Origin: Ctena decussata
Taxonomy: Eukaryota > Mollusca > Bivalvia > Lucinida > Lucinidae
Reading direction: 5' to 3'
Assembly: GCA_963989385.1 (NCBI GenBank)
Contig: OZ022499.1
Location: 52,069,757 to 52,133,756, forward strand
DNA: 64,000 nucleotides
Below are positions 15,101 to 56,871 of this stretch, in pieces. Made by a program: the position numbers and the translations under genes. The notes beneath the pieces are model-generated. The model ran no database searches, was not told where the DNA came from, and saw nothing but the letters and a program-made list of their open reading frames with translations. Position 1 is the first letter of the stretch, and every line of letters starts with the position of its first letter.

Positions 15101-18100
15101 TACTGATGACATGTATTTTGAATTTATTTTAAATGATATTTCCTATATCTATTTCAGAGGAGAATTGGACAAAAATGTGGTGAAAAATCTTATTCGTTCT
15201 TCTAGTTTGAAAAAGAGCAAGGATACATCAAGAGAGCCAAAACGGGCAATTAGTTTCCGTACTCAGAAATCAGGAGAGCAGTTGACTATGCCTCAACCAG
15301 AATTAAAAACAGCATATGTGTTCCGGCAGGGTGAGGGTGTGGTTACCCCACCTCCTACTCCTGGCCAAGAGACTCAAAATGAGATTGAAAATGCTCCCGA
15401 TTTACCATCAGCCCCACCCCCAGAATTTGTAGAATCAACAAGTCCATTATCAAAGAAAAAACAATTATCCCCGCCAGTTAGTCCAAAACAAAAACATTTA
15501 GAACATGCTAAGGCCCACGACGATAGGAAAAAAAGAACTCCTAGTTTTAATATTAGAAAACGGACTCAAAGTTTTAAAGATAAGCATAAATTACCGGAGA
15601 ATTTACCGCCATTAGAAATGGAAGGACTATTAGAACGTAAGCAAGAACTACAAAGTGGAGGAAAGAAAGCAACAATTAGGTCATGGAAAAATTTCTACGC
15701 TGCCTTATTTGGCCAGTTGTTATGTTTCTTTAAAGATAAGGAAGGTGAGTTATATTTTAATTATTCTTACAGTGTATTGTTTAAAAGCATATTATTGTAA
15801 AAAATTCTGCTAAGTCTTATATGAATAATTAAGCAGAGATGTTGGATGTGGGAAAAATCATCTTTGAAATATTCTCAATAAGCCCTCTTATCTGGAACTC
15901 TGAGTCTTTCCCAGTGTCGGCAGTGTAAACTTTGCGGCAAGCTTTCTGGTCTGTGACAATGTTAAGACAGGCTAGACACTTCTTTCTGCAGAGTTTTTGA
16001 TTTCATCACCTTGGAAACTATTAGGTTTATTTTTTACCCGTAGCCAGATTATTGCTGAGATTTTTCTAGGGCTAGTTTGGATAATTTTGGAGCCATTTCA
16101 GTGATCCGTTTTAGGATGAGAATGTGTCATAAATAGTTACTTGTATGGTGTGTTGAACTTCATGTTTTGCCTTGTGTTTCAGCTTATTCAGAACAAGTTG
16201 CAGCCACTCCACCATTAAATATCCATGAAGCTGCCTGTGTCATTGCCTCAGACTACACAAAAAAGAAGCATGTGCTACGATTAAAACTACGGGATAATTC
16301 TGAGTTCCTCTTAGAGGCTCCAAGTCAGAATGAAATGGTTGAGTGGTTAGGAAAAATAAAGAAATTTTCAGGTAAGTTTTGCTGGGTTATAAAAGTATAA
16401 TTGAGGTTTAGCATAGGGAGAAAACACAAATTGGTATTTGCAAATTGAAAAGCCCAACACTGCAGATAAAGTGAGAACACAGCTGTCACTTTAAAACACT
16501 ACTCTTCCAAAAATGTCAGTAATCATGCCATATTGTTCTGTGTTCTTCTATTCTGAGAAGTCTCATTTCAGTCTATTCACCTGCCTGATTTGAACAGGGC
16601 TGCATAATATATGGAACTTACAGAATGTATTTAGTGAAACATGAAGCCCTTGGATGGCTTCTGATGGGCTTTTCTGATTGCAGTATGCCAGTATTTGTTT
16701 TCCCCTAGCTGACTCTAATAACCTATATCATATTCATTTACATATAGATTAACTCTCTCATCAGAACATTTATTGATGATGTAGTATATACCAGTAGTGT
16801 GAATAAAACAAAATGCTATCTCATATTCCATCTGACAGCTTAGGGAACTCTTCCTATTATCACTTCTAAAATGTTTGTGAATGAATAAAATTAAGGAAAA
16901 TATGAAAGACATACTTTTATACATACATTTAGTACATAACAAAAGTTATTTCAATTGACCAAAGTAAGCACATCATTTGAAATATTTATTTTGAAATGTT
17001 CACATTTAATGTACTTTTTATGGGGAAAGGGACAACTTGAATATGTAATCAGAAGTAGGCTAGATTACTTGGTGATTTTACAAATGAGTATTATTTGGTG
17101 CAGGTCTGTAAAATCTTGGATTTTACAGTAAATGGTTTAAAGAGCAATCTTACATTTCAGAATTTTATTGGAGGAGAACATTATCACTTAGACATGATAG
17201 ATTTATCAAAATATTTTAATCCCTAAGCGATGAAGCGAAAAAAGTTGAATTTGCTAACAGGGTAGATTTTGAGGAGGTGGCTCATAATGAGCTTCTTCAT
17301 CTCGGTCTACACTGTTTGTCTTCAAGTCTTTGAATTCTCAATATGATGTAGGTTGGGCAAATAATGTAATGAAATTTTGCAGATGTACATTTTTGGGGTC
17401 TGCGTTTTAGGCATTTTAAGGGTTAGTTGTTTTTAAGGTGCACCTTTATCTGTATAACCTATTGTACGATGGTTAATAAAGTGTATTGATTTGGCAAAAA
17501 ATTTAAATATGATGTAAAAAGTAACATTGTGGAGTTTATCTTTAAATTTTGCATGGCTGTTATGTAATGTTGAGAATTGAGTATGTTTGGTATATTTTTT
17601 AATTGTGACTGTCGTCATGAATTTGTGGACATATCATATGCATGAAAATAATGTCTAACTTTGAAAAAAAAAACTGTTGTATCATGTCTGTCTATATTAT
17701 ATCTGTCTTGTAGAATTGTTATACATGTATCAAATTATCCCTTACTAGATACTGTTCACATATTTATTCTGACATCAGAGGAACATTTTAGTAAAAGAAA
17801 AAAAGTAATAATAAGTAAACAAGCAAAAATAAATTCTTCCGTTATGATAATTGTTACACCTACATTCAGATTCTTTTAAATTAACTCTTAACATGTTTAA
17901 TTTTATAAAAAAAATCAAAGAAACTGAAACAGTGAAATAATTTATGGAACGTATTTCTGTTACAAATGGGTAAGGAAATAAACTTTGATGTCAGATATTG
18001 TCACAAGCATGAGTTTAACGTAAAATTAACCTTTCACCGTTTGTTGCTACTGTTGATGTTTACAGACCATCCAGCAATGTTTCCCGATATGGAATTTGTT

Positions 18101-21100
18101 AGTGATGTTGTCGACAACGAGGAACCTGGAGGTGACCATAACAAAACACAATTTATTGCCGTTTTTAGTTGCTGTTAACCTTTTTGTCCATTTTCTTTTG
18201 GCCATTTAACTTTCCAAATTATCATAGATTGGCTATTAAAGCATCTCTATCAAGCCATCCGATTCTTTGCTAATATTTCGAAGTTTCAGCATACTTGTAC
18301 CTGGCTGCTGTAGGTGCATGTGCAAATACATTAGAACCATGCACACACGATGTACTTGAAATGGATTCTCAATTTAACAAACTGTCTGTTTTCAGAATAC
18401 ATGAAGTAAAATTTAAAATGAGCCACGACGTGACAAAACCAACAATGTGGTCGTGCGTCCAGCGCAGACTCAGATCAGCCTAGACATCCGCCCAGTCTGA
18501 TCAGAGTCTTCGCTGTCCGCATGGAGGTAGCTGAGTCCCTTAGCTATCCGTTAAGCACTTAGCAAAGAGTCTGACCAGACTGGGCGAATGTCTAGGCTGA
18601 TCTGAGTCTGAGCTGGGCACACTACCACTTTGTTGGTTTTCTCATGTCACGGCTCAAATGTTTGTGCCACTTTTGCCAGGATATCAAAAATTCTTTATAA
18701 CTCAGTCATCATTCAAAAAGGCTGAAAAATTAAAGTAGTCACATTATTAGAACAATTTTACACTTGGAATATAGAATATATACAAAGTCTATGGTAGTTT
18801 GGAAAGATTGGAGCTGCCTTCAAGCCTGCATTCACAATATTTCATTTTTGCTTTTAATCAAATTATTGAGCCACTGGGCTTCAGCTTTACAATGTACAGA
18901 GCTTTTAAAATATTTCACTGAGCTTTATATTTTCATGCAGAGAGATTTTTTGTCAGGTTTTAGCATAATTGCAGAGGCTTTAAAGCTTTTTATGCATATG
19001 TATGTGAGCTTTGTTTGCTTTTTGACATGTAAGTGATGGCCTGTACAGACAAAACGGTTTTGCATTGATACCAACAGTTGGGAGCTGCACCGAAGTTGGA
19101 CTAGGAGCTTTGCAATCATAATCATGAACAGATCCAGACACAGCTTTAGTGCACTGGAAAATGTATACTATTATACAGCCCAAGCAGAAAGAAAATACAA
19201 GTGTACCTAAAATTAAAATCTTAAAAAGTTCCTTCAAGAGCAGAGAATACAAACAGAAGTAGGAACATGGCCAGACTACGTAGTTTCGGCTAATAAAGCC
19301 TCGTCAGTGACCCTGACAGTATCTGGTGACGAAACCAGAAAAAAGCATACTGTAATTTCTTAATTTCTTAAAGTCTGGCTCATTGTCTGACTTAGACAAG
19401 AGATTATATTTGTATCTTGTGAGCATAAATTAAGGGTCATATGGGTGCTGCAATGTATTGACAGGCTTTGAACAATCCTTCACCAAAACTGTGATGCTTA
19501 AGAAAAGACAAAAAAAGGAGACTTTTAAGTGCTAAATCAGAAACACAGTCCATCATGCCTTAAGGAATCATTTTGTCCATAAGAAGAAAATTATAGGTAG
19601 GGTAACAGAAGAAATAATAGTTTCCATCTTCTTTTATTTGGCCTCGCTACGATAGAATTTGAAAAGAACAATGGGTATACAGTTATGTTTCCAATTATTA
19701 ATGTTCCATTTATCTATAATTAAATAACTATTATTCTCACAAAAATGGAATATTTGTCTGCAGGTTTAAAATGAGAGAATAACAGGAACAAAATGAGAAA
19801 ATAAGATTCTGCCTCATCTGAAATCACTGCTACTCACTAGCCTGATTAGCATCATTTAGGTGTTAGTCAGAGAGCCATATAAGCAAACGTGGGCTTAAAA
19901 TTGATATCAAAACAGATGTTTATACTCCCAGACTACCATATTTATTCTGTGAAATGCACCTGGGGTGTTGCATCTTACAAAAGAGGAGTGTGTGTGTGTT
20001 GGGGGGGGGGGGGGGGGGGCTTTGTTTACAGCCGAAAAAGGAACCAAAGCAACCCTAACCAGAATATACTTCCACTAGGCTGAACTAAGAGATTTTAACC
20101 ATGTAAGAATAACAGCTGCACTACAATAGCTGACAGTTGCATGAAATACCTCATGGACCTTGATGAGGTGAACATACGATGGTACATAAATAAGTTCTGA
20201 ATAGTAAGATCCTTTGGAAGCAAAGAATACATCAAAAGAACAGAAATTAGCAGACTCTGTTTTAATTGAGTCTGTTCATGACCAGTAATGAAATGTGCGA
20301 CACCAGCCATGCCACCTAGCACTGGCTTAGGCGGAACTATATTTCTGAGGATTTTATTCCTGGAATTTGCAATTTTGGCAAGTCAGTATAAAATTATTTT
20401 TGGCTAAAGGGGGATAGGGGTTTATTAGAGTGGGGGCAACTAATAGGTTCAAAATGATATTCCTTTATAGAGAAATGGAAAACAATGTAAACCCCAAAAG
20501 TTTGCTTATTTATGACTCTGATTACTATTATATTCCATCAAGGCTAAACATTTTCTCATATTGTTATACATGTTGTACAGAGAATAGCTGTCCTGTTGAA
20601 GGAACAAATATATACTTGTAGAGAATTTAATTTTACTGTGCCACTTGAAGGCTACACAAACATATACAAGAATGTTGAACAAAAGAATGATCAAATGCAA
20701 ATTTGGAACTACCAAAGAAGCCTATGTATTTGACACTTTAACCCTTTTACATGTCCAACAAAACATCTAAAATGGACTTTTCCAGTTTTTTTGAGCTCAC
20801 AGAGGCTTCTTAATAAAATCAATTAGCCAGAACATGACAAACCAACAACTTGGCATATGTGCCAAGCAAAGACTCAGATCAACCTTGGCATCCATCCAGT
20901 CTGACCAGAGTCTGTGCTTTGCACCCAAAGGGTAGCTAAAGGTCTAAGCTACTGCCATATGGGCAGCAAAGACTCTGATTGGACTGGGTGGATGCCCAGG
21001 CTGATCTGAGTCTTTGCATAATGCACCTGCTTTTTTGTAAATTTTGTAATGTCATAGCTCAAATTGTTTGTTGAATGACAAACGGTGTAGACCTGAACAG

Positions 21101-38746: not shown

Positions 38747-38941
38747 ATAAACATTTATTACCTCAGGACTTGATCTCACTGGCATGTTATGAGTTCCAGA
38801 CTTGTCCAGTTTAGAATTATCTTCAGATGTTGTGGCACGACCTGCATCAAGATTCTGAGACCATTGTCTTGAAACTATGCAATTCTGTTGCATTGTCAGA
38901 TTTCTTTTGGAGCCAGATGCACCAGATTTTATATGAACCAT

Positions 38942-39162
38942 AACATAAGAGAACCATCAAAATTGTTGTGCACTCAGCACAGACTCAGATCAGCCTGGGC
39001 CTAGTCTGATCAGAGCCTTCGCTGTCCACATGGAGGCCGCTTAGAACCTTAGCTACCCTTTAAGCGCTTAGCATACAGTCTGATCAGACGGCGGATGCCC
39101 AGGCTGACCTGAGTCTGCGCTGTGCGCATAACCACTGTTTTGATTTTCACGTGTAGCTGCTC
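38942..39162. repeat. palindromic MITE family A
   Basis: Contains ACTCAGATCAGCCTGGGC and the matching right arm GCCCAGGCTGACCTGAGTC; ends are worn (AAGAGAACCATCAAAATTG, GTAGCTGCTC). Confidence 0.8.
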
Positions 39163-41342
39163 ACATGTGTATGCATCTAGTACTGAGTCATTACAGATAA
39201 AATTTCTTTCCTGAAATTGACTACAGTTTGAACATTTTAGTATATCGATCTTAGCAGCTATGGACCCCATGCACAGCAGCCAGAATCATAAAATGCATGC
39301 ATCTTATTGCTCGGTGCCAGATGCTGATCATCTTTATATATAATAACTCGCATTTTCTTACCACAAGACTAGATAATCAGAGATCACATTTTTTAAAGTT
39401 GAACTTACAGGTGTCAGCAGATTGGTTCTGGTGCCGTCACTCAGACTATCAATGATGTATTTACTCACTCTTCATTTATGTGAAGATGGATGAACAAACG
39501 GGTATATCTTTTCCTATTCTCTTTGTACTTTATCCTTGCGTGCACCCCTCCACTCCCTGTCCACTCCATATTATGTGCCATGAAATTCAGATCTGTAACT
39601 AGCCACTTAAGTTAAAATTACCATGAGGATGACATTTTTGGGGTAGCGCATGACCCGTACTGTACCAGTGCCGTATTTGGGGTCGCTGGCGTATGTCCGC
39701 ATCTCCTCGTCACAGGCCCTTTTTTAAATTTCAGCCAGAGTATGCATTGCACTACTCCAGATCAACTGACATGAAAGAAAGTTACCTCCGTATAGCATAT
39801 ATTTTCGAAATGTATCACACTCCGCGAGTGTTTGCTTCCAAAGTCCTTAAAACCATGTCAGTGAATACACCCGTCCATGCAGCTAATTCATAGTGAGTCA
39901 AACATAACAATGTGAAGTTTGCAGGTTCATACATATATCGGCTTCCGTGGACTCTAGATCTTTCAAGTATTTCACCACTCCAGGCTCCAGGTAACCGGTC
40001 AAACCTGTAAAACCACACCACAGTGGCAATCCTTTTGCAAAAATATTCATCTGGCTTAGTTTTCGAGGTTGTGGATGTTTCTCCGCGTCCGCGGGTCCCA
40101 AACCTTTCAAACTTCATCACTGCTCAAATACAATGACACGAAGCTAGGTAAATATGGGAGTACTTAAGTTTAACTATACCACAGGTCAAGTTCTCCAGGT
40201 CACATTACTACTTCACTGTGACCTACCCTAAAAGTCCTCAGTGTCGCGTGCATTACTCGCCGGCCTACTGCAGATAGGCAAAAATAAATCTGAACAGGAT
40301 TCTTCTCACGCACATTTTGAAACTATACTCTTCGCCAAAGTTTTGTATAATGTTAAAGTATTCAATTAATGCGATTATAAGAAAGCATAACCATATTAAT
40401 AAGACAAATGCACTCTGTCATCAATGATTAATTATCATAAGTCATCAAGATTAAACTGATTATGAGTAGCAACTACCCAAAGCGAACACAGATACATGTG
40501 TCCAGAAATGAGCATTTTGGGGAAAAAAAATATTACTGCGTTGCGCCGATGGGTGATTTGCCTGTTACATCAATTCAATAATTATAACGTAAAAGATTCT
40601 ACGGCGAATGCGAAACGTTGGTGCTATAAACATTTTTTCTCACTCTCTCAAATACATATAGGCTATTAGCTGTCTATAAAACAGGCCATTTTGCCAAGTA
40701 TCTCTAAAACTACCATACATATCATTTGGAAGCATCTTTACTGTATATATAATACATAACTAATCTATCATTTTCTTGAAAAATGTATTTTGAAACAAAA
40801 AAAAGCTTCTTTTGAAAAATGTCCATTTTTAGCTCACCTGAGCCGAAGGCTCACAAGGTGAGCTTATAGTACAGGCTTGGTCCGTCGTCCGTCCTCCGTC
40901 GTCCGTCCACACTTTTAAGTAGTAATATCTGCTAAAGTAGCTGGCCAATCTTGATCAAATTTTATGTGTAGCACGGTTGGGGTAGGGGATTGATTGCATA
41001 TAGTTTTGGGACAGATTGGTTTAAAACTGTGGTTACCATGGCAACAAAAAGGTCCCAGAGACTTATAATGGGGAAAATGTTGTCCGGGCCCTAACTTCTT
41101 CATTTTTGATCGCAACTTCTTCAAACTTGCAGATAAGCAGGACAGTCAAAACATCTCGGACCAGTTCGAATTTGGGCCAGGTTGGATCATTCTTTTCAGA
41201 GTTACTTGCCCTTGAGTGATAAAATGTTTTCCCATAGACTTATAATGGGGAAAATGTTGTCCGGGCCCCAACTTCTTCATTTTTGATTGCAACTAATTCA
41301 AACTTGCAGATAAGCAGGACAGTCAAAACATCTAGGACAAGT

Positions 41343-43438
41343 ATAGTATAGTATAGTTTATTCTTTAGTAACATAGGCCGCTGGCCCAAATTACATATAT
41401 GCATTTACATAATACATCAAAAAGAGTGACCAAAATATGTTACGCATTTGAACAGCAAATATATCTGATTGGTGTCACGCAAAATGGTGCCCCACGATGT
41501 GCGAAGATAAAGGATCCAGATCAGCCTGGGCATCCGCGCAACCCGAGCCCTTCATCTTTAAACACCCAACTCTTGGATCCCAGAGAGTTTACAAAGATAA
41601 AATCAAAAGACTGTGATCATACTGCGCAGATGCACAGACTGATCACAGCTTTCACCTCAAGCACTTACCCAAAGGTCCCACTTCACGCTCTACCAATCAC
41701 ATATTGATATACATTTTGAGCATCATCTAAGCGGTCGCACAGCGTCGAATCAACACTGAATCAACGCTGATTCAACGTCAGAACCTTGAATCAACGTCCA
41801 TTCAATGTCGACTCAACGCTGCGCACCGAGCAGCATAAATGATCATTAATTTACATCGCCGAGTATAATTTTTTCTCGAACCTTCAGTGCTGAAAATATA
41901 TATCTTGATACATTCAATATAAGTTTATCATTGTTTGAGGTACATATTTGAATAAATTTATCAACTGATGGGTATGTATACCAGATTGCTGAAAAATATT
42001 TAATTCTTACTGCCTTTAACATTGGACAAACGAGCAGAAAATGAAATTCCGTTTCAATATCTGTCTTACAAAGTGGACACAACCTATCACTAAAGGGGAT
42101 ATTATTAAATCGACCTACATTACACTGCAATTTCAACAATCCACCTCTAAATTTCGTAAATAAAATTTTAAAAATCCTACTCTGTTTACTGAAAAGAAAC
42201 TGCTCGCAACCAAAATTATATTTGATAAGTTTGTATGTCCTTAACCTGTCCATAGCTTGCAAGTCTGAATTAAGCGTTTGTATGTTCATATCAGTCAATC
42301 TTTGTTTCAGTACTTTCAAAAATACATTTGCTTGCCCCACCCCCTGGTTCAACCAAACTTCGCCAAATCCCAGCCTAAATAATAATTGCTTGATATTAAA
42401 TGCCCAGCAGTCGGTATCATTTACCAGCCATCGCAACTGCATTTTATAACATAATTTAGGTAGTCGAAAATCCGGCAATGAAATAATTCTGAGCCAATAT
42501 TTGATTGCTTTGATACGTTTAGAAACATCAAGACTGTATCTTCCAAGTTCGCTACGAACAAATGCATTTGGTGCGTACAAAGGTAGATGCAAAACATACT
42601 TGCAAAACTAATTGTGAACCTGTTCAATGTCCGGTGCGATATGGTTAAACCAAACTTCTGAGCCATACAAAAGCACCGGTAATATTTTGCTATCAAATAT
42701 TTTAAACAAAACATTTACACTGATATCACCGTATTGTAATAAGTTTGACTTAACAGAATACAGTGCTTTAGATGCTTGGCTAGCTAAAGTTTTCTGACAC
42801 ATTGACCAAACGTTCCTTGAAGAGAAAAGAATACCTAGATATTTATAATATGTCACGGTTTCAATATTCATGTCGCCGTATTTCCATCTTTCGTTCTCGC
42901 GCAATGGTCCCCCATTTCTGAAAACAATTATTTTTGTTTTTTCAAGATTTATCTTCAAACGCCAGGCATCGCAATATTCCCGCAAGCGGTTAATTAATCG
43001 TTGAAGTTCAATCACAGTTTCCGAGAACACAACTAAATCATCGGCAAAAAGCAAAATAAATAATGTAACAAATTCAACATCAATGCCGTGACTTCCTATC
43101 GATATGTAGTCTTTAAGATCGTTTAGAAAGAAAGTAAACAAAACTGGCGAGATTATACATCCCTGTCGGACCCCGAGCGGACAAGAAAATATTTCGGTGA
43201 GATCTGTTGAGGTTTTAATACATGCTTTAACATCGGCGTAAATAGCTTTTAACATTCGGACCATTTTAGAGCTTACAATTTGAGTTGACAACTTATACCA
43301 AAGTGCACTTCGATCCACACGATCAAATGCCTTTTCGAAGTCTACAAAAAGCGCATAGAAGCGCCCACCTTTTCTACGAAGATATTTTGTTATTAATGTA
43401 TGTAAAACAAACACATTATCGGTTGTTGAAAACTGCGC
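41343..43438 (-). mobile_element. 5'-truncated non-LTR retrotransposon inside the satellite
   Basis: Its 3' end on the left is a run of TATAG/CTATA units (41342-41360); its 5' end on the right stops inside the reverse transcriptase. Flanked by ACAAGT at 41337-41342 and 43439-43444, a likely 6-bp target duplication. The satellite sequence resumes right after it. The 3' UTR (41361-41845) holds a worn stretch similar to MITE family A (41515-41690) and a TCAACG-type minisatellite (41745-41825). Confidence 0.85.
41846..43437 (-). pseudogene. non-LTR reverse transcriptase, truncated and with one in-frame stop
   Basis: Minus-strand frame from 43437 to the stop at 41846. Reads STTDN near the start, then ALFVDFEKAFDRVDR, LGVRQGCIISPVLFTFFLND, the catalytic FADD (43037-43048), KTKIIVF and a thumb/connection part ending QVHN. 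A single TAG at 42608-42610 interrupts the frame where related proteins read on (VH-x-x-FCKY). After it the same frame continues with ELGRYSL and a CPLC...H...C zinc-knuckle-like site. The endonuclease and the N-terminal RT blocks are missing, so the copy cannot move by itself. Confidence 0.9.
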
Positions 43439-46400
43439 ACAAGTTCGAATTTATGTCTGGTTGGATCATTCTTTTCAGAGTTACTTGCCCTTTAGTGATC
43501 AAATATTTTCCCATAGACTTACAATGTGGAAAATGTTGTCCGGGCCCTAACTTCTTCATTTTTGATCGCAACTTCTTCAAACTTGCAGATAAGCAGGACA
43601 GGAAAACCATCTCGGACCAGTTCGAATTTGGGTCAGGTTGGATCATTCTTTTCAGAGTTACTAGCCCTTGAGTGATAAAATATTTTCCCTTAGACTTATA
43701 ATGGGGAAAATGTTGTCCGGGCCCTAGCTTCATCATTTTTGATCGCAACTTCTTCAAACTTGCAGGTATTTAGGACAGCCAAAACAGCTAGAACCAGTTG
43801 GAGTTTGAGCCAGGTTGGATCATTCTTTTAGAATTACTTGCCCTTGAGCGATGAAATATTTTCCCATAGACTTATAATGGGGAAAATGTTGTCCGGGCCC
43901 TAGCTTCTTCATTTTTGATCGCAACTTCTTGTAACTTGCAGGTATCTAGGACATTCAAAACATCTCGTACCAGTTCGAATTTGGGTCAGGTTGGATCATT
44001 CTTTTCAGAGTTACTTGGCCTTGAGTGATAAAATATTTTTCCATAGACTTATAATGGGGAAAATGTTGTCCGGGCCCTAACTTCTTCATTCATTGATCAC
44101 AACTTATTCAAACTTGCAGATAAGCAGGACAGTCAGAACATCTCGGACCAGTTCGAATTTGGGTCAGGTTGGATCATTCTTTTCAGAGTTACTTGCCCTT
44201 GAGTGATAAAATATTTTCCCATAGACTTATAATGGGAAAATGTTGTCCGGGCCCTAACTTCTTCATTTTTGATCGCAACTTCTTCAAACTTGCAGATAAG
44301 CAGTACAGTCAAAAAATCTTGGACCAGTTCGAATTTGAGTCAGGTTGGATCATTCTTTTCAGAGTTACTTGCCCTTGAGTGATAAAATGTTTTCCCATAG
44401 ACTTATAATGGGTAAAATGTTGTCCGGGCCCTAACTTCTTCATTTTTTTTATTGCAACTTCTTCAAACTTGCAGATAAGCAGGACAGTCAAAACATCTTG
44501 GACCAGTTCAAATGTGGGTCAGGTTGGATCATTCTTTTCAGAGTTACTTGCCCTTGAGTGATAAAATATTTTCCAATAGACTTATAATGGGGAAAATGTT
44601 GTCCGGGCCCTAACTTCTTCATTTTTTATTGTAACTTCTTCAAACTTGCAGATAAGCAGGACAGTCAAAACATCTTGGACCAGTTCAAATGTTGGTCAGG
44701 TTGGATCATTCTTTTCAGAGTTACTTGCCCTTGAGTGATAAAATGTTTTCCCATATGCTTATAATGGGGAAAATGTTGTCCGGGCCCTTACTTCTTCATT
44801 TTTGATCGCAACTTCTTCAAACTTGCAGATAAGCAGGACAGTCAAAACATCTCGTACCGGTTCGAATTTGGGTCAGGTTGGATTATTGTTTTCAGAGTTA
44901 CTTGGCCTTGAGTGATAAAATATTTTCCCATAGACTTATAATGGGGAAAAGTTGTCCGGGCCCTAGCTTCTTCATTTTTGATCGCAACTTCTTCAAACTT
45001 GCAGATAAGCAGAACAGTCAAAACATCTCGGACCACTTCGAATATGGGTCAGGTTGGATCTTTCTTTTTAGAGTTACTTGCCCTTGAGTGATAAAATGTT
45101 TTCCCATATGCTTATATTGGGGAAAATGTTGTCCGGGCCCTTTCTTCTTCATTTTTGATCGCAACTTCTTCAAACTTGCAGATAAGCAGGACAGTCAAAA
45201 CATCTCGTACCAGTTCGAATTTGGGTCAGGTTGGATCATTCTTTTCAGAGTTACTTGGCCTTGAGTGATAAAATATTTTCCCATAGACTTATAATGGGGA
45301 AAATGTTGTCCGGGCCTTAACTTCTTCATTTTTGATCGCAACTTCTTAAAACTTGCAGATAAGCAGGACAGTCAAAACATCTCGGACCAGTTCGAATTTG
45401 GGTCAGGTTGGATCATTCTTTTTAGAATTACTTGCCCTTGAGTGATAAAATATTTTCCCATAGACTTATAATGGGGAAAATGTTGTCCGGGCCCTAACTT
45501 CTTCATTTTTGATCGCAACTTCTTCAAAATTGCAGATAAAAAGGACAGTCTAAACATCTCGTACCAGTTCGAATTTGGGTTAGGTTGGATCATTCTTTTC
45601 AGAGTTACTTGCCCTTGAGTGATAAAATGTTTTCCCATAGACTTATAATGGGGAAAATGTTGTCCGGGCCCTTACTTCTTCATTTTTGATCGCAACTTCT
45701 TCAAACTTGCAGATATGCAGGACGGTCAAAACATCTTGGACCAGTTCGAATTTGGGTCAGGTTGGATCATTCTTTTCAGAGTTACTCGGCGTTGAGTGAT
45801 AAAATATTTTCCCATAGACTTATAATGGGGAAAATGTTGTCCGGGCCATAACTTCTTCATTTTTGATCGCAACTTCTTCAAACTTGCAGGTAAGCAGGAC
45901 AGTCGAAACATCTCGGACCAGTTTGAATTTGGGTCAGGTTGGATCATTGTTCTCAGAGTTACTTGCCCTTGAGTGATAAAATATTTTCCCATAGACTTAT
46001 AATGGGGAAAATGTTGTCCGGGCCCTAGCTTCATCATTTTTGATCGCAACTTCTTCAAACTTGCAGGTATTTAGGACAGCCAAAACAGCTCGAATCTGTT
46101 GGAATTTGGGCCAGGTTGGATCATTCTTTTAGAATCACTTGCCCTTGAGCGATAAAATATTTTCCCATAGACTTATAATGGGGAAAATGTTGTCCGGGCA
46201 CTAGCTTCTTCATTTTTGATCGCAACTTCTTGTAACTTGCAGGTATCTAGGACATTCAAAACATCTCGTACCATTTCGAATTTGGGTCAGGTTGGATCAA
46301 TCTTTTCAGAGTTACTTGGCCTTGGGTGATAAATATTTTCCCATAGACTTATAATGGGGAAAATGTTGTCCGGGCCCTAACTTCTTCATTTTTGATCGCA

Positions 46401-49400
46401 ACTTCTTCAAACTTGCAGATAAGCAGGACAGTCAAAACATCTCGGACCAGTTCGAATTTGGGTCAGGTTGGATCATTCTTTTCAGAGTTACTTGCCCTTG
46501 AGTGATAAAATATTTTCCCATAGACTTATAATGGGGAAAATGTTGTCCGGGCCCTAGCTTCATCATTCTTGATCGCAACTTCTTCAAACTTGCAGGTAAG
46601 CAGGACAGCCAAAACAGCTCGAACCAGTTGGAATTTGGGCCAGGTTGGATCATTCTTTTAGAATTACTTGCCCTTGAGCGATAAAATATTTTCCCATAGA
46701 CTTATAATGGCGAAAATGTTGTCCGGGCCCTAGCATCTTCATTTTTGATCGCAACTTCTTCAAACTTGCAGATAAGCAGGACAGTCAAAACATCTCGGAC
46801 CAAGTCGAATTTGGGTCAGGTTGGATCATTCTTTTCAAAGTTACTTGCCCTTGAGTGATAAAATGTTTTCCCATAGACTTATAATAGGGAAAATGTTGTC
46901 CGGGCCCTAACTTCTTCATTTTTGATCGCAACTTCTTCGAACTTGCAGATAAGCAGGACAGTCAAAACATTTTGGACCAGTTCGAATTTGGGTCAGGTTG
47001 GATCATTCTTTTGAGAGTTACTTGGCCTTGAGTGATAAAATATTTTCCCATAGACTTATAATGGGGAAAATGTTGTCCGGGCTCTAACTTCTTCATTTTT
47101 GATCGCAACTTCTTCAAACTTGCAGGTTTATAGGAGAGCCATAACAGCTCCAACCAGTTGGAATTTGGGCCAGGTTGGATCATTCTTTTAGAATCACTTG
47201 CCCTTGAGCGATAAAATATTTTCCCATAGACTTATAATGGGGAAAATGTTGTCCGGGCACTAGCTTCTTCATTTTTGATCGCAACTTCTTGTAACTTGCA
47301 GGTATCTAGGACATTCAAAACATCTCGTACCAGTTCGAATTTGGGTCAGGTTGGATCATTCTTTTCAGAGTTACTTGCCCTTGAGTTATAAAATGTTTTC
47401 CCATAGACTTATAATGGGGAAAAGTTGTCCGGGCCCTAGCTTCTTCATTTTTGATCGCAACTTCTTCAAACTTGCAGATAAGCAGGACAGTCAAAACATC
47501 TCGGACCACTTCGAATATGGGTCAGGTTGGATCATTCTTTTTAGAGTTACTTGCCCTTGAGTGATAAAATGTTTTCCCATATGCTTATAATGGGGAAAAT
47601 GTTGTCCGGGCCCTTACTTCTTTATTTTTGATCGCAACTTCTTCAAACTTGCAGATAAGCAGGACAGTCAAAACATCTCGTACCAGTTCGAATTTGGGTC
47701 AGGTTGGATCATTCTTTTCAGAGTTACTTGGCCTTGAGTGATAAAATATTTTCCCATAGACTTATAATGGGGAAAATGTTGTCCGGGCCTTAACTTCTTC
47801 ATTTTTGATCGCAACTTCTTAAAACTTACAGATAAGCAGGACAGTCAAAACATCTCGGACCAGTTCGAATTTGGGTCAGGTTGGATCATTCTTTTCAGAG
47901 TTACTTGCCCTTGAGTGATAAAATATTTTCCCATAGACTTATAATGGGGAAAATGTTGTCCGGGCCCTAACTTCTTCATTTTTGATCGCAACTTCTTCAA
48001 AATTGCAGATAAAAAGGACAGTCTAAACATCTCGTACCAGTTCGAATTTGGGTTAGGTTGGATCATTCTTTTCAAAGTTACTTGCCCTTGAGTGATAAAA
48101 TGTTTTCCCATAGACTTATAATAGGGAAAATGTTGTCCGGGCCCTAACTTCTTCATTTTTGATCGCAACTTCTTCAAACTTGCAGATAAGCAGGACAGTC
48201 AAAACATTTTGGACCAGTTCGAATTTGGGTCAGGTTGGATCATTCTTTTGAGAGTTACTTGGCCTTGAGTGATAAAATATTTTCCCATAGACTTATAATG
48301 GGGAAAATGTTGTCCGGGCTCTAACTTCTTCATTTTTGATCGCAACTTCTTCAAACTTGCAGGTTTATAGGAGAGCCATAACAGCTCCAACCAGTTGGAA
48401 TTTGGGCCAGGTTGGATCATTCTTTTAGAATCACTTGCCCTTGAGCGATAAAATATTTTCCCATAGACTTATAATGGGGAAAATGTTGTCCGGGCACTAG
48501 CTTCTTCATTTTTGATCGCAACTTCTTGTAACTTGCAGGTATCTAGGACATTCAAAACATCTCGTACCAGTTCGAATTTGGGTCAGGTTGGATCATTCTT
48601 TTCAGAGTTACTTGCCCTTGAGTTATAAAATGTTTTCCCATAGACTTATAATGGGGAAAAGTTGTCCGGGCCCTAGCTTCTTCATTTTTGATCGCAACTT
48701 CTTCAAACTTGCAGATAAGCAGGACAGTCAGAACATCTCGGACCACTTCGAATATGGGTCAGGTTGGATCATTCTTTTTAGAGTTACTTGCCCTTGAGTG
48801 ATAAAATGTTTTCCCATATGCTTATAATGGGGAAAATGTTGTCCGGGCCCTTACTTCTTTATTTTTGATCGCAACTTCTTCAAACTTGCAGATAAGCAGG
48901 ACAGTCAAAACATCTCGTACCAGTTCGAATTTGGGTCAGGTTGGATCATTCTTTTCAGAGTTACTTGGCCTTGAGTGATAAAATATTTTCCCATAGACTT
49001 ATAATGGGGAAAATGTTGTCCGGGCCTTAACTTCTTCATTTTTGATCGCAACTTCTTAAAACTTACAGATAAGCAGGACAGTCAAAACATCTCGGACCAG
49101 TTCGAATTTGGGTCAGGTTGGATCATTCTTTTCAGAGTTACTTGCCCTTGAGTGATAAAATATTTTCCCATAGACTTATAATGGGGAAAATGTTGTCCGG
49201 GCCCTAACTTCTTCATTTTTGATCGCAACTTCTTCAAAATTGCAGATAAAAAGGACAGTCTAAACATCTCGTACCAGTTCGAATTTGGGTTAGGTTGGAT
49301 CATTCTTTTTAGAGTTACTTGCCCTTGAGTGATAAAATGTTTTCCCATAGACTTATAATGGGGAAAATGTTGTCCGGGCCCTAACTTCTTCACTTTTGAT

Positions 49401-51635
49401 CGCAACTTCTTCAAACTTGCAGATATGCAGGACGGTCAAAACATCTTGGACCAGTTCGAATTTGGGTCAGGTTGGATCATTCTTTTCAGAGTTACTTGGC
49501 GTTGAGTGATAAAATATTTTCCCATAGACTTATGATGGGGAAAATGTTGTCCGAGCCATAACTTCTTCATTTTTGATCGCAACTTCTTCAAACTTGCAGG
49601 TAAGCAGGACAGTCGAAACATCTCGGACCAGTTTGAATTTGGGTCAGGTTGGATCATTGTTCTCAGAGTTACTTGCCCTTGAGTGATAAAATATTTTCCC
49701 ATAGACTTATAATGGGGAAAATGTTGTCCGGGCCCTAGCTTCATCATTTTTGATCGCAACTTCTTCAAACTTGCAGGTATTTAGGACAGCCAAAACAGCT
49801 CGAATCTGTTGGAATTTGGGCCAGGTTGGATCATTCTTTTAGAATCACTTGCCCTTGAGCGATAAAATATTTTCCCATAGACTTATAATGGGGAAAATGT
49901 TGTCCGGGCACTAGCTTCTTCATTTTTGATCGCAACTTCTTGTAACTTGCAGGTATCTAGGACATTCAAAACATCTCGTACCATTTCGAATTTGGGTCAG
50001 GTTGGATCAAGCTTTTCTCAGTTACTTGGCCTTGAGTGATAAAATATTTTCCCATAGACTTATAATGGGGAAAATGTTGTCCGGGCCCTAACTTCTTCAT
50101 TTTTGATCGCAACTTCTTCAAACTTGCAGATAAGCAGGACAGTCAAAACATCTCGGACCAGTTCGAATTTGGGTCAGGTTGGATCATTGTTTTCAGAGTT
50201 ACTTGCCCTTGAGTGATAAAATATTTTCCCATAGACTTATAATGGGGAAAATGTTGTCCGGGCCCTAGCTTCATCATTCTTGATCGCAACTTCTTCAAAC
50301 TTGCAGGTAAGCAGGACAGCCAAAACAGCTCGAACCAGTTGGAATTTGGGCCAGGTTGGATCATTCTTTTAGAATTACTTGCCCTTGAGCGATAAAATAT
50401 TTTCCCATAGACTTATAATGGGGAAAATGTTGTCCGGGCCCTAACTTCTTCATTTTTGATCGTAACTTCTTGTAACTTGCAGGTATCTAGGACATTCAAA
50501 ACATCTCGTACCAGTTTGAATTTGGGCCAGGTTGGATTATTTTTTTCAGAGTTACTTGCCCTTGAGCGATGAATATTTTCCCATATACTTAAAATGGGGA
50601 AAATGTTGTCCGGGCCCTAACTGCTTCATTTTTGATCGCAACTTATTCAAACTTGCAGCTATCCAGGACAGTCAAAACATCTCGGACCAGTTCGAATTTG
50701 GGCCAGGTTTGATCATTCTTTTCAGAGTTACTTGCCCTTGAGCGATAAAATATTTTCCCATAGACTTAAAATGGGGAAAATGTTGTCCGGGCCCTAGCTT
50801 CTTCATTTTTGATCGCAACTTATTCAAACTTGCAGCTATCCAGGACGGTTAAAACATCTCGGACCAGTTCGAATTTGGGCCAGGTTTGATCATTCTTTTC
50901 AGAGTTACTTGGCGTTGAGCGATAAAATATTTTCCCATAGACCTATAATGGGGAAAATGTTTTCCGTCATCATTCTAGTGCCTTCATTTATGGAATGATT
51001 TAAATTGTACTTCACACAAGTGATGAGTATGACAATATCTTGGACTAGAACGCGTTTCAGCATTTGTGGGTCAAGGTGAAGGACACAGTGGCTATTTTTA
51101 GAAAAACTTTGTCATCGCTGTAGCGCATCAGTTTGTGGACTGAATTCAGTTGGATATCACACAAGTGATTAGTATGACAATATCTTGGGTTTAGGTCAAG
51201 GTCACAGTGGCTTTTTTTAGAAAAACTTTGTCATCGCTCTAGAGCCTTCATTTATGGACCCATTTTGATTAAAACTTCACACTAATGTTTAGTATGACAA
51301 TATCTTGAACAAGCTCGCGTTTCAGCGTCCTACGGTCAAAGTCAAGATCACAGTGGTTATTTATAGAAAAACTTTGTCATCGCTCTAGCGCTTTCATTTA
51401 TGGACTAATTTCGATTTAACTTCACACAAGTGATAAGTATGGCAATATCTTGGACAAGTTTGCGTTTCAGCATTCTTGGGTCAAGGTCAAGGACACAGTG
51501 GCTGTTTTTAGAAAAACTTTGTCTCGAGCCTTATATGGACCGATTTTGATTTAACTTCACACAAATGTTTAGTATGACAATATCTTGTACAAGTTTGCGT
51601 TTCAGCATTCTAAGGTCAAGGTCACAGTTGCTGTT

Positions 51636-52096: not shown

Positions 52097-53035
52097 AGTT
52101 ATTATTTTGACTGTATTTTACAAGGGGGTAACTCTTATCAATGTAACAGCCTTCACAATGGCCAACATTTAGCTATGTTTATTGTTAGGTTATTTGCATA
52201 CAAATCAAAGCATAGTAGTTGCATTCACTGACGCCTGTATAACTGTTAATCTTCTTGATTGTGATGCATAAATGGGAATGAGTTATGGCTGTTTCATTTA
52301 ATACTGTACTAGCCTTCACTTAAGCTTAAAAGTTTGTAATAGATTGAATAGACAAAAGCAAGAAAATGACAAGATAGAATTCTGAAAGTCATTTCCTAGT
52401 TATGTATTAATTACAAATACGAGTGGAGAAAGAAAATCATTTTATGCCCAGTGTTGAATGAGAAAATCTAAAGACTATCTTGTTTAATAGACAGCAAATA
52501 GCCTATACACTGTTTGGACATTTTCTTCTTCCCTTGCCTTCCTCAGTTCTTACTCAAAATCAGTCCACACTTGGTGTTTTTACAATACAGTCCAGCTTAC
52601 AAGAGCAGCAGGCCACACATATCGCAGCAGACTCTGTTTAACCTCATCACTCATTTCAGACTGTAATTGTAACAGTACATTAAGTGCTGGTATTTATTTA
52701 ACGCTGTAATATGTTTGCAGTTTTTAAAAAGCAGCATTTGTTATTTTACTGTAAGGATACAAGAAGTTTGAAAGCTGAATCTCATTATCAAAAGAGTATG
52801 GGAGTCTGGCATGTGGTAGTATGATGGATACAGAGACAACCTGGAAGAGGTCACTGTGATAAATCTTCACACTTTCTAGACCATGTAAGCCTCACTGAAT
52901 GAATCCTTGACTTGTTGATAGAATGCATCTATCTTCACTCTGAAAATAAGATCTAATAAAAATGTTGTGCTTTCTAATAATAGTGTTACGTTTACTTTAA
53001 AATTATGCTTAGATTTTGGCGATGGGTATATTAAT
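52097..53035. other. intergenic, nothing recognised
   Basis: AT-rich, no repeat or coding frame noticed. Confidence 0.6.
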
Positions 53036-53266
53036 GAGCCGCGTCACGACAAAACCAACAAAATGGTTGTGCGCCTAGCGCAGTCTCAGATCAGCCTGGA
53101 CATCTGCCCAGTCTGATCAGAGTCTTCGCTGTCCGCATGGAGGTACATTTAGCTACTCCTAGGTACCCTTTGAGCGCTTGAGTGATCAAACTTGGCGGAT
53201 GCCAAGGCTAATCTGAGTCTGCGCTGGGCGCAAAATCTCTTTGTTGGTTTTCTCGTGTCTTTGCTC
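53036..53266. repeat. palindromic MITE family A
   Basis: Ends GAGCCGCGTCACGACAAAAC and GTTTTCTCGTGTCTTTGCTC; right inner arm partly deleted. Confidence 0.85.
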
Positions 53267-53524
53267 AAATTTTGAATTGTGCAAAGGATGCAGATAGGGT
53301 TCTGAATAATATAAAAATGCATATGGAACACATGTTGTGTCTATTGCATACAACGTTCGTCACAAGTTCCTTCTCGGTAAGTGTCTCGGTAACTTTCTTT
53401 GAGTGGAAATTATTGATATTATTATCTTCTTAAAGCCAGGCTTTGCTGACAGTGACAACGAACAACGAATGCTTGCAAAGAAAAGAAAAACCTTGATGTC
53501 GATGGTTCTGCAGCACCTATAATT

Positions 53525-53760
53525 GAGCCGCGACACGAGAAAACCAACAATGTGGTCCTGCACCCAGCACAGACTCAGATCAGCCTTGCCATTCGCCCAG
53601 TCTGATCAGACTCTTTATTAAGCGCTTAAAGGGTAGCCTAGGGACTAAGCTACCTTCATGCGGACAGCAAAGACTCTGATCACACTGGGCGGATGCCCAG
53701 GCTGATCTGAGTCTGCGCTGGGCGCACAACCACATTGTTGGTTTTGTCATGTCGCGGCTC
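53525..53760. repeat. palindromic MITE family A, well kept
   Basis: Ends GAGCCGCGACACGAGAAAAC and GTTTTGTCATGTCGCGGCTC, arms about 110 bases. Its right end lies 384 bases before the start codon of the ankyrin/nucleotidyltransferase gene. Confidence 0.92.
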
Positions 53761-54019
53761 ATATCATTTCAGCGTCTGAATAAAAAATAGACAAGGGAAA
53801 ACAAACGCCTCCACACAGATGGCAAAGTTCCACTAAAGTGCATGGACTGCCTTGAAACTTGCAATTTCAATATATTTTTCTTGAAATGTTTCACTATTTT
53901 TCATGGGAAAAGAAATTTTTACAATTTTTCAAGAAAACAGGTACACTTTCACTCCAGCTAATCGTCATACGTACAATGATTTAGTCGTAGTGTTTTAGCC
54001 ATTATTGATTCGATCACGT

Positions 54020-54144: not shown

Positions 54145-56844
54145 ATGGCTTCCTCCTGTAAGCACAAAGATACATTGCTTAACGCTATAGAGGATGGCGA
54201 TACAGATCTGGCTGTTGGCTTGATTAAAAATGGTCACTCCACCGACGGCGAATATGATGAAGAATACAGACCGCTTCATGTAGCAGTAATGAAAAATAAC
54301 ATTGATGTTTGCCGTGAGCTTCTGGTTGCAGAGGCACGTGTTAATGCTCTTGACAAGTTTGGATGTACACCACTGATTAGAGCAAGCCATAAAGAAACAT
54401 CACTGGAAATAGTGAAATTACTGATAGCTTCAGGAGCTGACGTTAGGATAACAACACCGTCTTCTGTAAGTGCTATACACATTGCAGCGCAATGGAGTTC
54501 TGTCGAGAAGCTTAGGTTTCTCCTTGATTTGCCTGGTGCGAATCCTTCGCTTACGGACGTATTCAAAAGAAATGCTCTCCATTATGCCTTACAATGTCTT
54601 GAAGGTATAGAGATTGTGAAAATAAACGTTTTGTTGCTTTTATATTCAGGGGTTTCCATCAATGCACAGGATTATGTTGGAGGAACATCTCTCGACTATG
54701 GATACCAATTATGTCACAGCCTCGATCTGCTTGGTCTTCTTTTTCAATATGGTGCTGATCCCACTATCAGAGATAGAAAAGGAGATAATTACTTGAACAG
54801 ACACATGAAGCTTGAAACAGCCTATGAATCAGACATTTTACTTCAACAGTTTCTTTCCGATGGACTTGGCATATTTTCGAAAGAGACTGTTCGATCTATG
54901 ATAAATGATAAAGGGTCTGGTGGCTACACTCCGTTTCATCGTGCTTGCGGGTTTTTTCTGTGTCCAGTTGAGGAGATTGAACAATTCTTCAGAAGTGGAG
55001 CTGACGTCACAATTCCTAATGATCTCGGTAAAACGCCGTTGCACTTGGCATCCCGTGAATTTTGGATTGCGTGCCCAGGTGTTGTTGAATTCCTTTTAAA
55101 AAACGGGGCTCCTGTTAACACGAAAGACACATTTGGTGAAACTCCAATATACCGAATGAAATCGTTAGGGTTGGTTAAAATCTTATTAGATTCTGGTGCA
55201 AATCTTCTTTCGAAAGATAATAATGGTCGACCGCCTCTGCTTGCGTTGTTGAACTTAAAACAACCGAAGGTATTACAACTGTTGCTGGATCGTGGAGCAG
55301 TGGTAAACTGTACAGATGACTATGGCTCGACTCCTTTGCATTATGCAGCATACTACGACGATGTCGAAGCGACACGAATTATACTGCAGCACGGCGGAGA
55401 CCTTGGCTCACTTGATAATCTTGGAATGACACCGCTGGACCTTGCAATAGAGCTGGGAATGTGTCATGTGGCCAAATACCTTCAAAACGAATTAATGGCT
55501 TCAGAAGGAAATCCACAGGTGATATACGACAGAAAAGAGCTCGTTTCTAACAATCAGAAGGACCACATGGGGGCCCAGAAATCACTAATGAGTGCCAAGA
55601 AACTGGACCTAATTGATTATCAGTTATATGAACAAAAGAACCAGTGGGTAGCAGACATTGTAGAAATGCCAAAGGACTTTGACATGTTTGCGCAAAGTGT
55701 CTTGTCCGCACCTGGAATAGGTAGAGTTGATAATCAAGAAGCTGAGGCAGTAAAAACAAGTGTCGTCGAGCTTATGGAGAACATTTGTGGAAAAATAAAA
55801 GAGAATGATGCTCGATTCAAAATAACGTTGGTTCCAACTGGCAGCTCATCGGAAGGAATGAAAGTCGGAGAACCGGATGAATTTGACTTTATGTGTTGCC
55901 TTGACGAGTTTACCGAGATTTGTAGAGTTGTTGAAGTGCCCAAATTAGATCCTTTTGGGTTTGCTAAACTTGCTTTAGCAGATACGGAAAAGCGGAGTGC
56001 ATTTGATCGTTTCTTCAGAGACGATAACTCGCTGTGGCCAGAAGTAGTTTATGAGGAATTCTTTTTCATACTAGATCAGGTGATTCAAACTGGTTCGACG
56101 TGGACAAACAGGCATTTAATATTTGAAGAGAGAGTATACAAGCTTTACGACAAGCCTCCGTTTAGCCTAACCATAACGTGGATCGGTACGAGGTATAAGC
56201 AGTTGAAAATCAGCATAGATATAGTGCCTGCCATCAGGATAAAAAATTGGGTACCTGCTAGCAGTTCAGCGGCCAGGAAATTGGGCTGTTTCTTTCTTTT
56301 GCAACCCACTTCGCACCAATACAGCATGTACGAGGAGAATGTTATGAGGGTTTCCTTTGCTGCAGTGGAAATCTTGTACCTAAGGAGTCTTCCTGAAACC
56401 GTGCGACTCGGCTATTCTCTCGCGAAGGCAATGCGAAACGAGAGTGTCTGTCCACCGGTGCAGTTTAATATGAAAGATTATAAGTTTGGAGCAGAAAGTG
56501 TCATTTCAAGTTACATGCTCAAAAACTGTCTCTTTCATGCCGTGAAATTACATTCCCATGAATTGTGGAAATGTGAACTCGAGACTGTAGCCGAAGACGT
56601 GGCATCTGTTGCCCGTATTTGGGCAATTAGAATTTACGAGATACTGCGAGAATGTTGCGAACGTGGACACCTACCTGTTTACTTCTTACGAAGTCAGGAT
56701 GTTTTCGCGTTTAGTTCCGTTTTCATGTCCGACAAGGAAGAAAAAGACATAAGAGAGGAACTAGCTGAACAAAATAGATGCAGACTTGTGTTTATAAATG
56801 TTATACAAACACTGCTAGGATTGCAGCGTCATTTGTGTGACTAA
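54145..56844 (+). CDS. ankyrin-repeat protein with cGAS-like (Mab-21) nucleotidyltransferase
   Basis: 899 residues, one exon. Start ATG 54145: in-frame TAA at 54049, no other ATG between, and a good context (GCGATGG). Residues ~5-452 form about 12-13 ankyrin repeats (GCTPLIRAS, GKTPLHLAS, GSTPLHYAA, GMTPLDLAI); the middle ones are worn. After a linker (~453-520) comes a Mab-21/cGAS fold: G566-S567 with SSEG, then P577-DEFDFM with E579 and D581, and D692 in KISIDIVPAI. This is the full G[S]...[E]h[D]...h[D]h active-site set. C-terminal Mab-21 marks: LRSLPETVRLGY (~748), SSYMLKN (~788), LPVYFL (843-848). cGAS-like receptors make cyclic dinucleotides after binding a ligand and so signal to STING; that role is inferred here. 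No Zn-thumb (H-x5-CC-x6-C) is seen. Likely cytosolic, no signal peptide or membrane segment. Confidence 0.93.
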   Translation: MASSCKHKDTLLNAIEDGDTDLAVGLIKNGHSTDGEYDEEYRPLHVAVMKNNIDVCRELLVAEARVNALDKFGCTPLIRASHKETSLEIVKLLIASGADVRITTPSSVSAIHIAAQWSSVEKLRFLLDLPGANPSLTDVFKRNALHYALQCLEGIEIVKINVLLLLYSGVSINAQDYVGGTSLDYGYQLCHSLDLLGLLFQYGADPTIRDRKGDNYLNRHMKLETAYESDILLQQFLSDGLGIFSKETVRSMINDKGSGGYTPFHRACGFFLCPVEEIEQFFRSGADVTIPNDLGKTPLHLASREFWIACPGVVEFLLKNGAPVNTKDTFGETPIYRMKSLGLVKILLDSGANLLSKDNNGRPPLLALLNLKQPKVLQLLLDRGAVVNCTDDYGSTPLHYAAYYDDVEATRIILQHGGDLGSLDNLGMTPLDLAIELGMCHVAKYLQNELMASEGNPQVIYDRKELVSNNQKDHMGAQKSLMSAKKLDLIDYQLYEQKNQWVADIVEMPKDFDMFAQSVLSAPGIGRVDNQEAEAVKTSVVELMENICGKIKENDARFKITLVPTGSSSEGMKVGEPDEFDFMCCLDEFTEICRVVEVPKLDPFGFAKLALADTEKRSAFDRFFRDDNSLWPEVVYEEFFFILDQVIQTGSTWTNRHLIFEERVYKLYDKPPFSLTITWIGTRYKQLKISIDIVPAIRIKNWVPASSSAARKLGCFFLLQPTSHQYSMYEENVMRVSFAAVEILYLRSLPETVRLGYSLAKAMRNESVCPPVQFNMKDYKFGAESVISSYMLKNCLFHAVKLHSHELWKCELETVAEDVASVARIWAIRIYEILRECCERGHLPVYFLRSQDVFAFSSVFMSDKEEKDIREELAEQNRCRLVFINVIQTLLGLQRHLCD

Positions 56845-56865
56845 GGTCCTAGACCCGTAATGGCA

Positions 56866-56871
56866 AATAAA
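56866..56871 (+). terminator. poly(A) signal of the ankyrin/nucleotidyltransferase gene
   Basis: AATAAA 22 bases after the stop codon. Further AATAAA at 57244-57249 and 57328-57333 could give longer 3' ends. Confidence 0.5.

Follow-up and report, generated by a model that had tools for sequence, protein, structure and literature searches.

A gene for a predicted ankyrin-fused cGAS-like receptor in the bivalve Ctena decussata

What does a gene do that joins a long stack of ankyrin repeats to a Mab-21/cGAS-like nucleotidyltransferase (NTase) in a single reading frame, and what might switch its product on? Such a gene lies in a stretch of 64,000 nucleotides from the bivalve Ctena decussata, which we analysed as a whole and refer to as the window. 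An original prediction, made from the DNA letters alone, had taken the product for an active cyclic-dinucleotide synthase whose sensing part is the ankyrin stack. From our analysis, the product is best explained as a cGAS-like receptor (cGLR) to which 13 ankyrin repeats are fused, with a predicted NTase fold of the cGAS type. The fusion itself is already in print, and the gene is a further case of it. Here, we consider its reading frame, its relatives, its catalytic residues and the kind of ligand that it may sense.

Results

The gene and its surroundings

When the window was shuffled 100 times by mononucleotides, none of the three forward frames stayed free of stops for more than 196 codons, and a relative 82% identical to the product exists (P0002); the 899-codon frame is thus far above chance (Table 1). 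The ankyrin and NTase domains share this one uninterrupted frame, as had been predicted, and both domains also occur in many relatives. The start codon lies in a context with G at both -3 and +4; together with the AATAAA that follows the stop codon, this would be a sign, at the level of motifs only, of a normal animal gene. The C-terminus of P0002 reads VTKVSDP, and window bases 56820-56860, around and after the stop codon, read alike by eye in another frame; a small shift of frame seems to set the two C-termini apart. A tblastn search with 12 family proteins, its own included (E 1e-3), matched the window at 54145-56844 and nowhere else, which rules out further copies of the gene in the window.

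Table 1. Features of the window, in window positions, with what each assignment rests on
Feature	Position	Strand	Basis or remark
Whole reading frame, ankyrin-Mab21/cGAS-like fusion	54145..56844	+	899 residues plus stop; ATG at 54145, TAA ending at 56844, no internal stops
13 ankyrin helix pairs, residues 10-453	54172..55503	+	Pfam Ank families; full-length model
Linker, residues 454-507	55504..55665	+	Full-length model; identity to P0002
Mab-21/cGAS-like nucleotidyltransferase and C-terminal helix bundle, residues 508-899	55666..56841	+	
G566-S567, nucleotide-binding loop	55840..55845	+	Family alignments
E579-F-D581, first two metal-binding acids	55879..55887	+	Aligned with EFD of mouse cGAS and Cv-cGLR1
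D692, third metal-binding acid	56218..56220	+	Family alignments; mouse cGAS/Cv-cGLR1 alignment
Junction lacking 13 residues found in P0002, between K712 and L713	56280..56281	+	Alignment with P0002
AATAAA, possible polyadenylation signal	56866..56871	+	21 bases past the stop codon; motif only
Spectrin repeats	870-1115, 2809-3072	+	Pfam
Split PH-domain pieces	15087-15797, 16137-16397	+	Pfam
Reverse-transcriptase frame	42611-43450	-	Pfam, RVT_1 E 4e-26
Tandem array, 177-base unit	43442-50966		42.6 copies, 91% matches; stops some 3 kb before the gene
Dispersed element of about 240 bases, self-matching in reverse, MITE-like	53521-53770		About 375 bases upstream of the ATG
Further copies of the MITE-like element of about 240 bases	near 3394-3715, 5101-5344, 5635-5886, 14630-14819, 18416-18659, 20832-21017, 38931-39166, 53034-53270		

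The window holds 97 stop-to-stop frames of at least 75 residues, 10 of which were scanned with Pfam. The exon-like pieces within 870-16397 (+) are assigned to a beta-spectrin gene, beta-spectrin chains being their nearest matches in the PDB. Next to the RVT_1 frame comes one whose zf-RVT match is weak and under the cut-off, and the two (41849-43450, -) are probably a non-LTR-like retroelement. We saw no bearing of the surrounding spectrin, retroelement and repeats on the function of the ankyrin-cGLR.

Domain architecture and predicted structure

Both halves of the protein are recognised by Pfam, the ankyrin part through Ank_2 (E 9e-60) and the NTase through Mab-21 (PF03281, residues 570-741, E 5.4e-8, 33.6 bits against a cut-off of 24.1); Mab-21_C scored 19.4 bits, under its cut-off of 24.1. 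In the full-length model the ankyrin part forms 13 helix pairs, in agreement with the 12-13 repeats of the original prediction, and residues 456-484 of the linker have a pLDDT below 50. The profile match of the NTase to mouse cGAS spans 10-382 of 406, and the fold match of the NTase model covers model residues 28-408 of 415. The top Foldseek match of this model is Cv-cGLR1 (PDB 8gjw, E 7.6e-15), and the predicted structure is like those of known cGLR/CD-NTase enzymes. Structure prediction and structural matches thus support the cGAS-type domain of the original prediction. A search of viral structures with the full-length model returned mostly ankyrin proteins among the named entries in the top 50, and was uninformative on the NTase.

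The fusion in other species

The closest relative found, P0002, is 82% identical to the window protein over 911 aligned positions. The NTase region, as the first query, brought up 11 proteins, and all 11 carry ankyrin and Mab-21 domains together. With an NTase profile of six rows (E 1e-5), for which the best 8000 candidates were scored, at least 82 proteins were found, 25 of them with ankyrin by the Pfam column, and a search from P0012 gave 68 proteins, P0012 included, with both domains in 60. Because these protein searches reach only relatives that share short exact words, the family counts are lower bounds. The same pair of domains was found in other bivalves, where it had been suggested that it be sought: in Mytilus, Ruditapes, Mercenaria, Saccostrea and Pinctada, with the same order in P0007. 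The named ankyrin-bearing matches from outside the bivalves include the crinoids Anneissia and Antedon and one anemone record; those without annotated ankyrin include the annelid Capitella, the soft coral Paramuricea and eel cGAS.

We built a tree by a quick method from 129 of 141 NTase domains, dropping 12 of under 250 residues; many of its branches are long, and its ankyrin labels are the Pfam annotation of the three family searches. The window protein forms a clade with P0002, P0003 and P0004, all ankyrin-fused (98, starred). An 83-row clade (98, starred) comprises 71 rows with ankyrin and 12 without, and among those 12 are some fragments. The ankyrin label changes at least 17 times on the tree, where shuffled labels give a mean of 41; starred branches force 10 of the 17 changes. 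As far as this annotation goes, the ankyrin-NTase fusion is clustered and kept in the family.

Two records deserve separate mention. P0107, recorded as Actinia tenebrosa (on a contig of 40 kb), pairs with P0106, recorded as Mytilus galloprovincialis, to which it is 63% identical, among rows named as bivalves. We rejected it as evidence of a cnidarian origin, given this nested position, which points to contamination, transfer or mislabelling. P0041 (Ruditapes), in the same NTase clade, has PF01753, which we take to be a MYND finger, and no annotated ankyrin; it is a possible domain swap.

Catalytic residues

The acids that correspond to E579, D581 and D692 coordinate two metal ions in cGAS, where binding of the nucleotide falls to the GS loop. 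All five residues named in the original prediction, G566, S567, E579, D581 and D692, are present at exactly those positions. The full set is kept in 135 of 141 proteins, the window protein included; of the other six, five have a gap in at least one of these columns and the sixth reads ESEDD. In a hand-chosen alignment of 64 rows, the only invariant columns of the window NTase are these five together with S737 and E742. This pattern of conservation is what selection on catalysis would leave.

The motif by which Li et al. 2023 define cGLRs is h[QT]GS ... [DE]h[DE]h ... h[DE]h (PMC9980059). The window protein has TGS at 565-567, E579-F-D581-F and I-D692-I. The residue before TGS is P564, which is not clearly hydrophobic, and PTGS is also found in eel cGAS. 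The printed spacing between the second and third acid motifs is X50-90 (PMC9980059); it is 108 in the window protein and lies within 50-90 in only 3 of 135 family proteins. Since eel and mouse cGAS, each at 91 (the mouse value read off its alignment by eye), fall just outside as well, the printed range is loose and no strict border.

It would be tempting to take the kept residues as proof of an active enzyme. The original prediction held that MAB21L-type proteins have lost them, which is contradicted by PMC9980059, which gives human Mab21L1 and Mab21L2 complete putative active sites and describes the making of nucleotide signals by them as not understood. Furthermore, three Mab21 proteins of shrimp are reported (PMC12928593) not to make cGAMP at detectable levels when given analogues of dsDNA or dsRNA, other products not being excluded, to bind neither dsDNA nor dsRNA, and to act through IKK-epsilon. 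Because complete sites are thus found in Mab21L1/L2, and shrimp Mab21 proteins lack detectable cGAMP, kept residues alone do not prove an active synthase. What stands of the earlier claim is the presence of the catalytic residues, which are kept family-wide; what does not stand is their use as proof of activity. The window protein may be an active cyclic-dinucleotide synthase. The literature we searched yielded no experimental test of an ankyrin-fused cGLR, although the 140 enzymes screened in PMC9980059 may include such fusions.

Loss of 13 residues beside the catalytic core

The 13 residues that the window protein lacks relative to P0002 would sit between two core strands of the NTase, beside the catalytic core. 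The interval from P704 to G714 is 9 residues in the window protein, 22 in P0002, 21 in P0003 and 18 in P0004; it is 18 in 67 of 115 rows and 12 or fewer in 12 other rows. The NTase model, built from the sequence of the window protein itself, has a block mean pLDDT of 88 at the junction. With a fairly confident model and 12 other rows that are also short, the loss may be harmless. It had no place in the earlier account of the protein.

Charge and zinc thumb

The window NTase (residues 508-899) has a pI of 5.5 and the whole protein one of 5.4. Within the profile envelope, the pI is 5.58 and the net charge -8, against 8.94 and +11 in eel cGAS. Among 70 NTase domains of the ankyrin set, 50 have a pI below 7 and 10 a pI above 8.5, and acidity is therefore no family rule. 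The zinc thumb was scored as the pattern H, CC, C, which we take to represent it; 140 of 141 proteins, among them the window protein, lack this pattern, and eel cGAS has it. Of the marks of vertebrate cGAS, the window NTase thus has neither the zinc thumb nor the basic charge. In PMC9980059, nucleic-acid-sensing cGLRs have a pI above 8.5 and those animal cGLRs whose ligand is known sense dsDNA or dsRNA; the ligands of acidic ones are left open, and non-nucleic-acid ligands are proposed for those that are auto-active. In its acidity and its missing zinc thumb, the window NTase resembles those cGLRs with a proposed non-nucleic-acid ligand more than the sensors of dsDNA or dsRNA, so that a protein or other non-nucleic-acid trigger would be likelier than either nucleic acid. 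This argument against dsDNA/dsRNA sensing is absent from the original prediction.

The ankyrin stack

Ankyrin repeats are protein-binding modules, and the stack is the obvious candidate for the protein-binding part of the window protein; its role in gating is putative. It may act as the sensor. Relative to P0002, identity is 82% in the ankyrin part, 72% in the linker, the least conserved part, and 86% in the NTase. In a sample from a clade other than that of the window protein (39 full-length proteins of 56 listed), the ankyrin part was less conserved than the NTase in 721 of 729 binned pairs (741 in total). Mean entropy was 1.59 at positions scored as concave and 2.09 at those scored as convex, with 1 of 5000 permutations as extreme; as consensus residues of the repeat structure fall among the concave positions and the comparison had no ankyrin family as a control, it is not diagnostic. 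It gave no sign of a fast-evolving ligand face. The linker, modelled at low confidence and probably flexible, would suit an arm that recruits while tethered, not a rigid lid.

Discussion

We propose that the gene encodes an ankyrin-fused cGLR that makes a cyclic dinucleotide read by STING and that is triggered more likely by a protein or other non-nucleic-acid ligand; we put the probability of this reading at about 50%. A ligand or partner protein would bind the ankyrin stack, the groove of the acidic NTase, or both. Binding would order the GS loop, two metal ions held by E579, D581 and D692 would join two NTPs into a cyclic dinucleotide, and STING would read this product.

The sensor might lie elsewhere in the protein. 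It is somewhat unlikely, in our judgment, that the ankyrin part only positions or clusters the protein, as a scaffold or as a tether to a membrane or partner, and that the NTase senses the ligand, as in single-domain cGLRs. Consistent with such an arrangement, 87% of cGLRs have no further domain (PMC9980059), only 25 of the 82 Pfam-annotated proteins of the six-row-profile search (best 8000 candidates scored) carry ankyrin, and some rows inside the ankyrin clade lack it, several of them fragments; the linker, moreover, is modelled at low confidence and is the least conserved part. However, ankyrin and NTase occur together in 11 of 11 proteins of the NTase-region search and 60 of 68 of the search from P0012, and the ankyrin part falls only a little behind the NTase in its identity to P0002 (82% versus 86%).

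Alternatively, the protein might make no cyclic nucleotide at all. That it is an adaptor with an NTase fold, signalling through protein contacts as shrimp Mab21 does, strikes us as improbable: a pure adaptor has no obvious need for the metal and GS-loop residues that 135 of 141 proteins keep. The protein-binding nature of ankyrin repeats would suit an adaptor, as would the shrimp proteins, which bound no nucleic acid, made no detectable cGAMP and acted via IKK-epsilon (PMC12928593). More doubtful still is the idea that the family is active but this duplicate weakened or dying, its frame open and its fold damaged by the loss of 13 residues. The 9 residues between P704 and G714, against 18 in 67 of 115 rows, hint at such a fate, as do the more than 200 cGLRs given for some bivalve genomes in PMC9980059. 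Yet the 899-codon frame is intact and the five catalytic residues are kept, the model of the protein's own sequence is confident at the junction (block mean pLDDT 88), and a loop of 12 residues or fewer in 12 other rows of 115 indicates that a short loop occurs in the wider family.

The proposed ankyrin-fused, ligand-triggered cGLR matters because this family combines a module for protein binding with an NTase that is mostly acidic and keeps its catalytic residues, and so lets one ask directly whether proteins, too, are sensed by cGAS-type enzymes. Being a single uninterrupted frame, the window gene is easily expressed, and P0002 provides a natural comparison without the 13-residue loss. We speculate further, as a conjecture that we hold to be unlikely, that bivalves have a widespread class of ankyrin-fused, mostly acidic cGLRs of about 900 residues that take protein or other non-nucleic-acid ligands via the ankyrin stack, an animal counterpart of protein-triggered nucleotide signalling, and that the long acid spacing may have put part of this class outside published censuses.

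Comparison with known systems

Ankyrin-fused cGLRs are on record in Li et al. 2023 (PMC9980059), a paper that names S. pistillata and, more broadly, a class of cGLRs that carry ankyrin or TPR modules, and counts more than 200 cGLRs in some bivalves. Those proteins have the same two kinds of domain and, by the paper's criteria, the catalytic residues; the acid spacing in these criteria is X50-90, whereas that of the window protein is 108. Within the bivalves, P0007 (Mytilus coruscus) has a similar length, the same domain order and the same catalytic residues as the window protein. Other bivalve ANK-Mab21 proteins also share domains and catalytic residues, although the window protein belongs to a separate small clade and has 13 residues fewer.

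Cv-cGLR1 of Crassostrea virginica (8gjw) has the fold that is predicted for the window NTase and the same E-x-D...D, but the two are only 16-17% identical, and the solved Cv-cGLR1 chain is the NTase, numbered 288-631. It is activated by dsDNA and makes 2'3'-cUA (PMC9980059). Vertebrate cGAS differs in having a zinc thumb, where the window protein has none and carries an N-terminal ankyrin stack, and in its basic domain (8.9 in eel), where the window NTase is acidic (5.5). MAB21L1 (PDB 5eog/5eom) is of the same domain family (profile E 6.5e-8, Foldseek rank 44) and has a developmental role and no known product according to PMC9980059. By profile E-values, on which this closeness rests since the tree had no row known as MAB21L, it matches the window NTase more weakly than cGAS and cGLR1 do.
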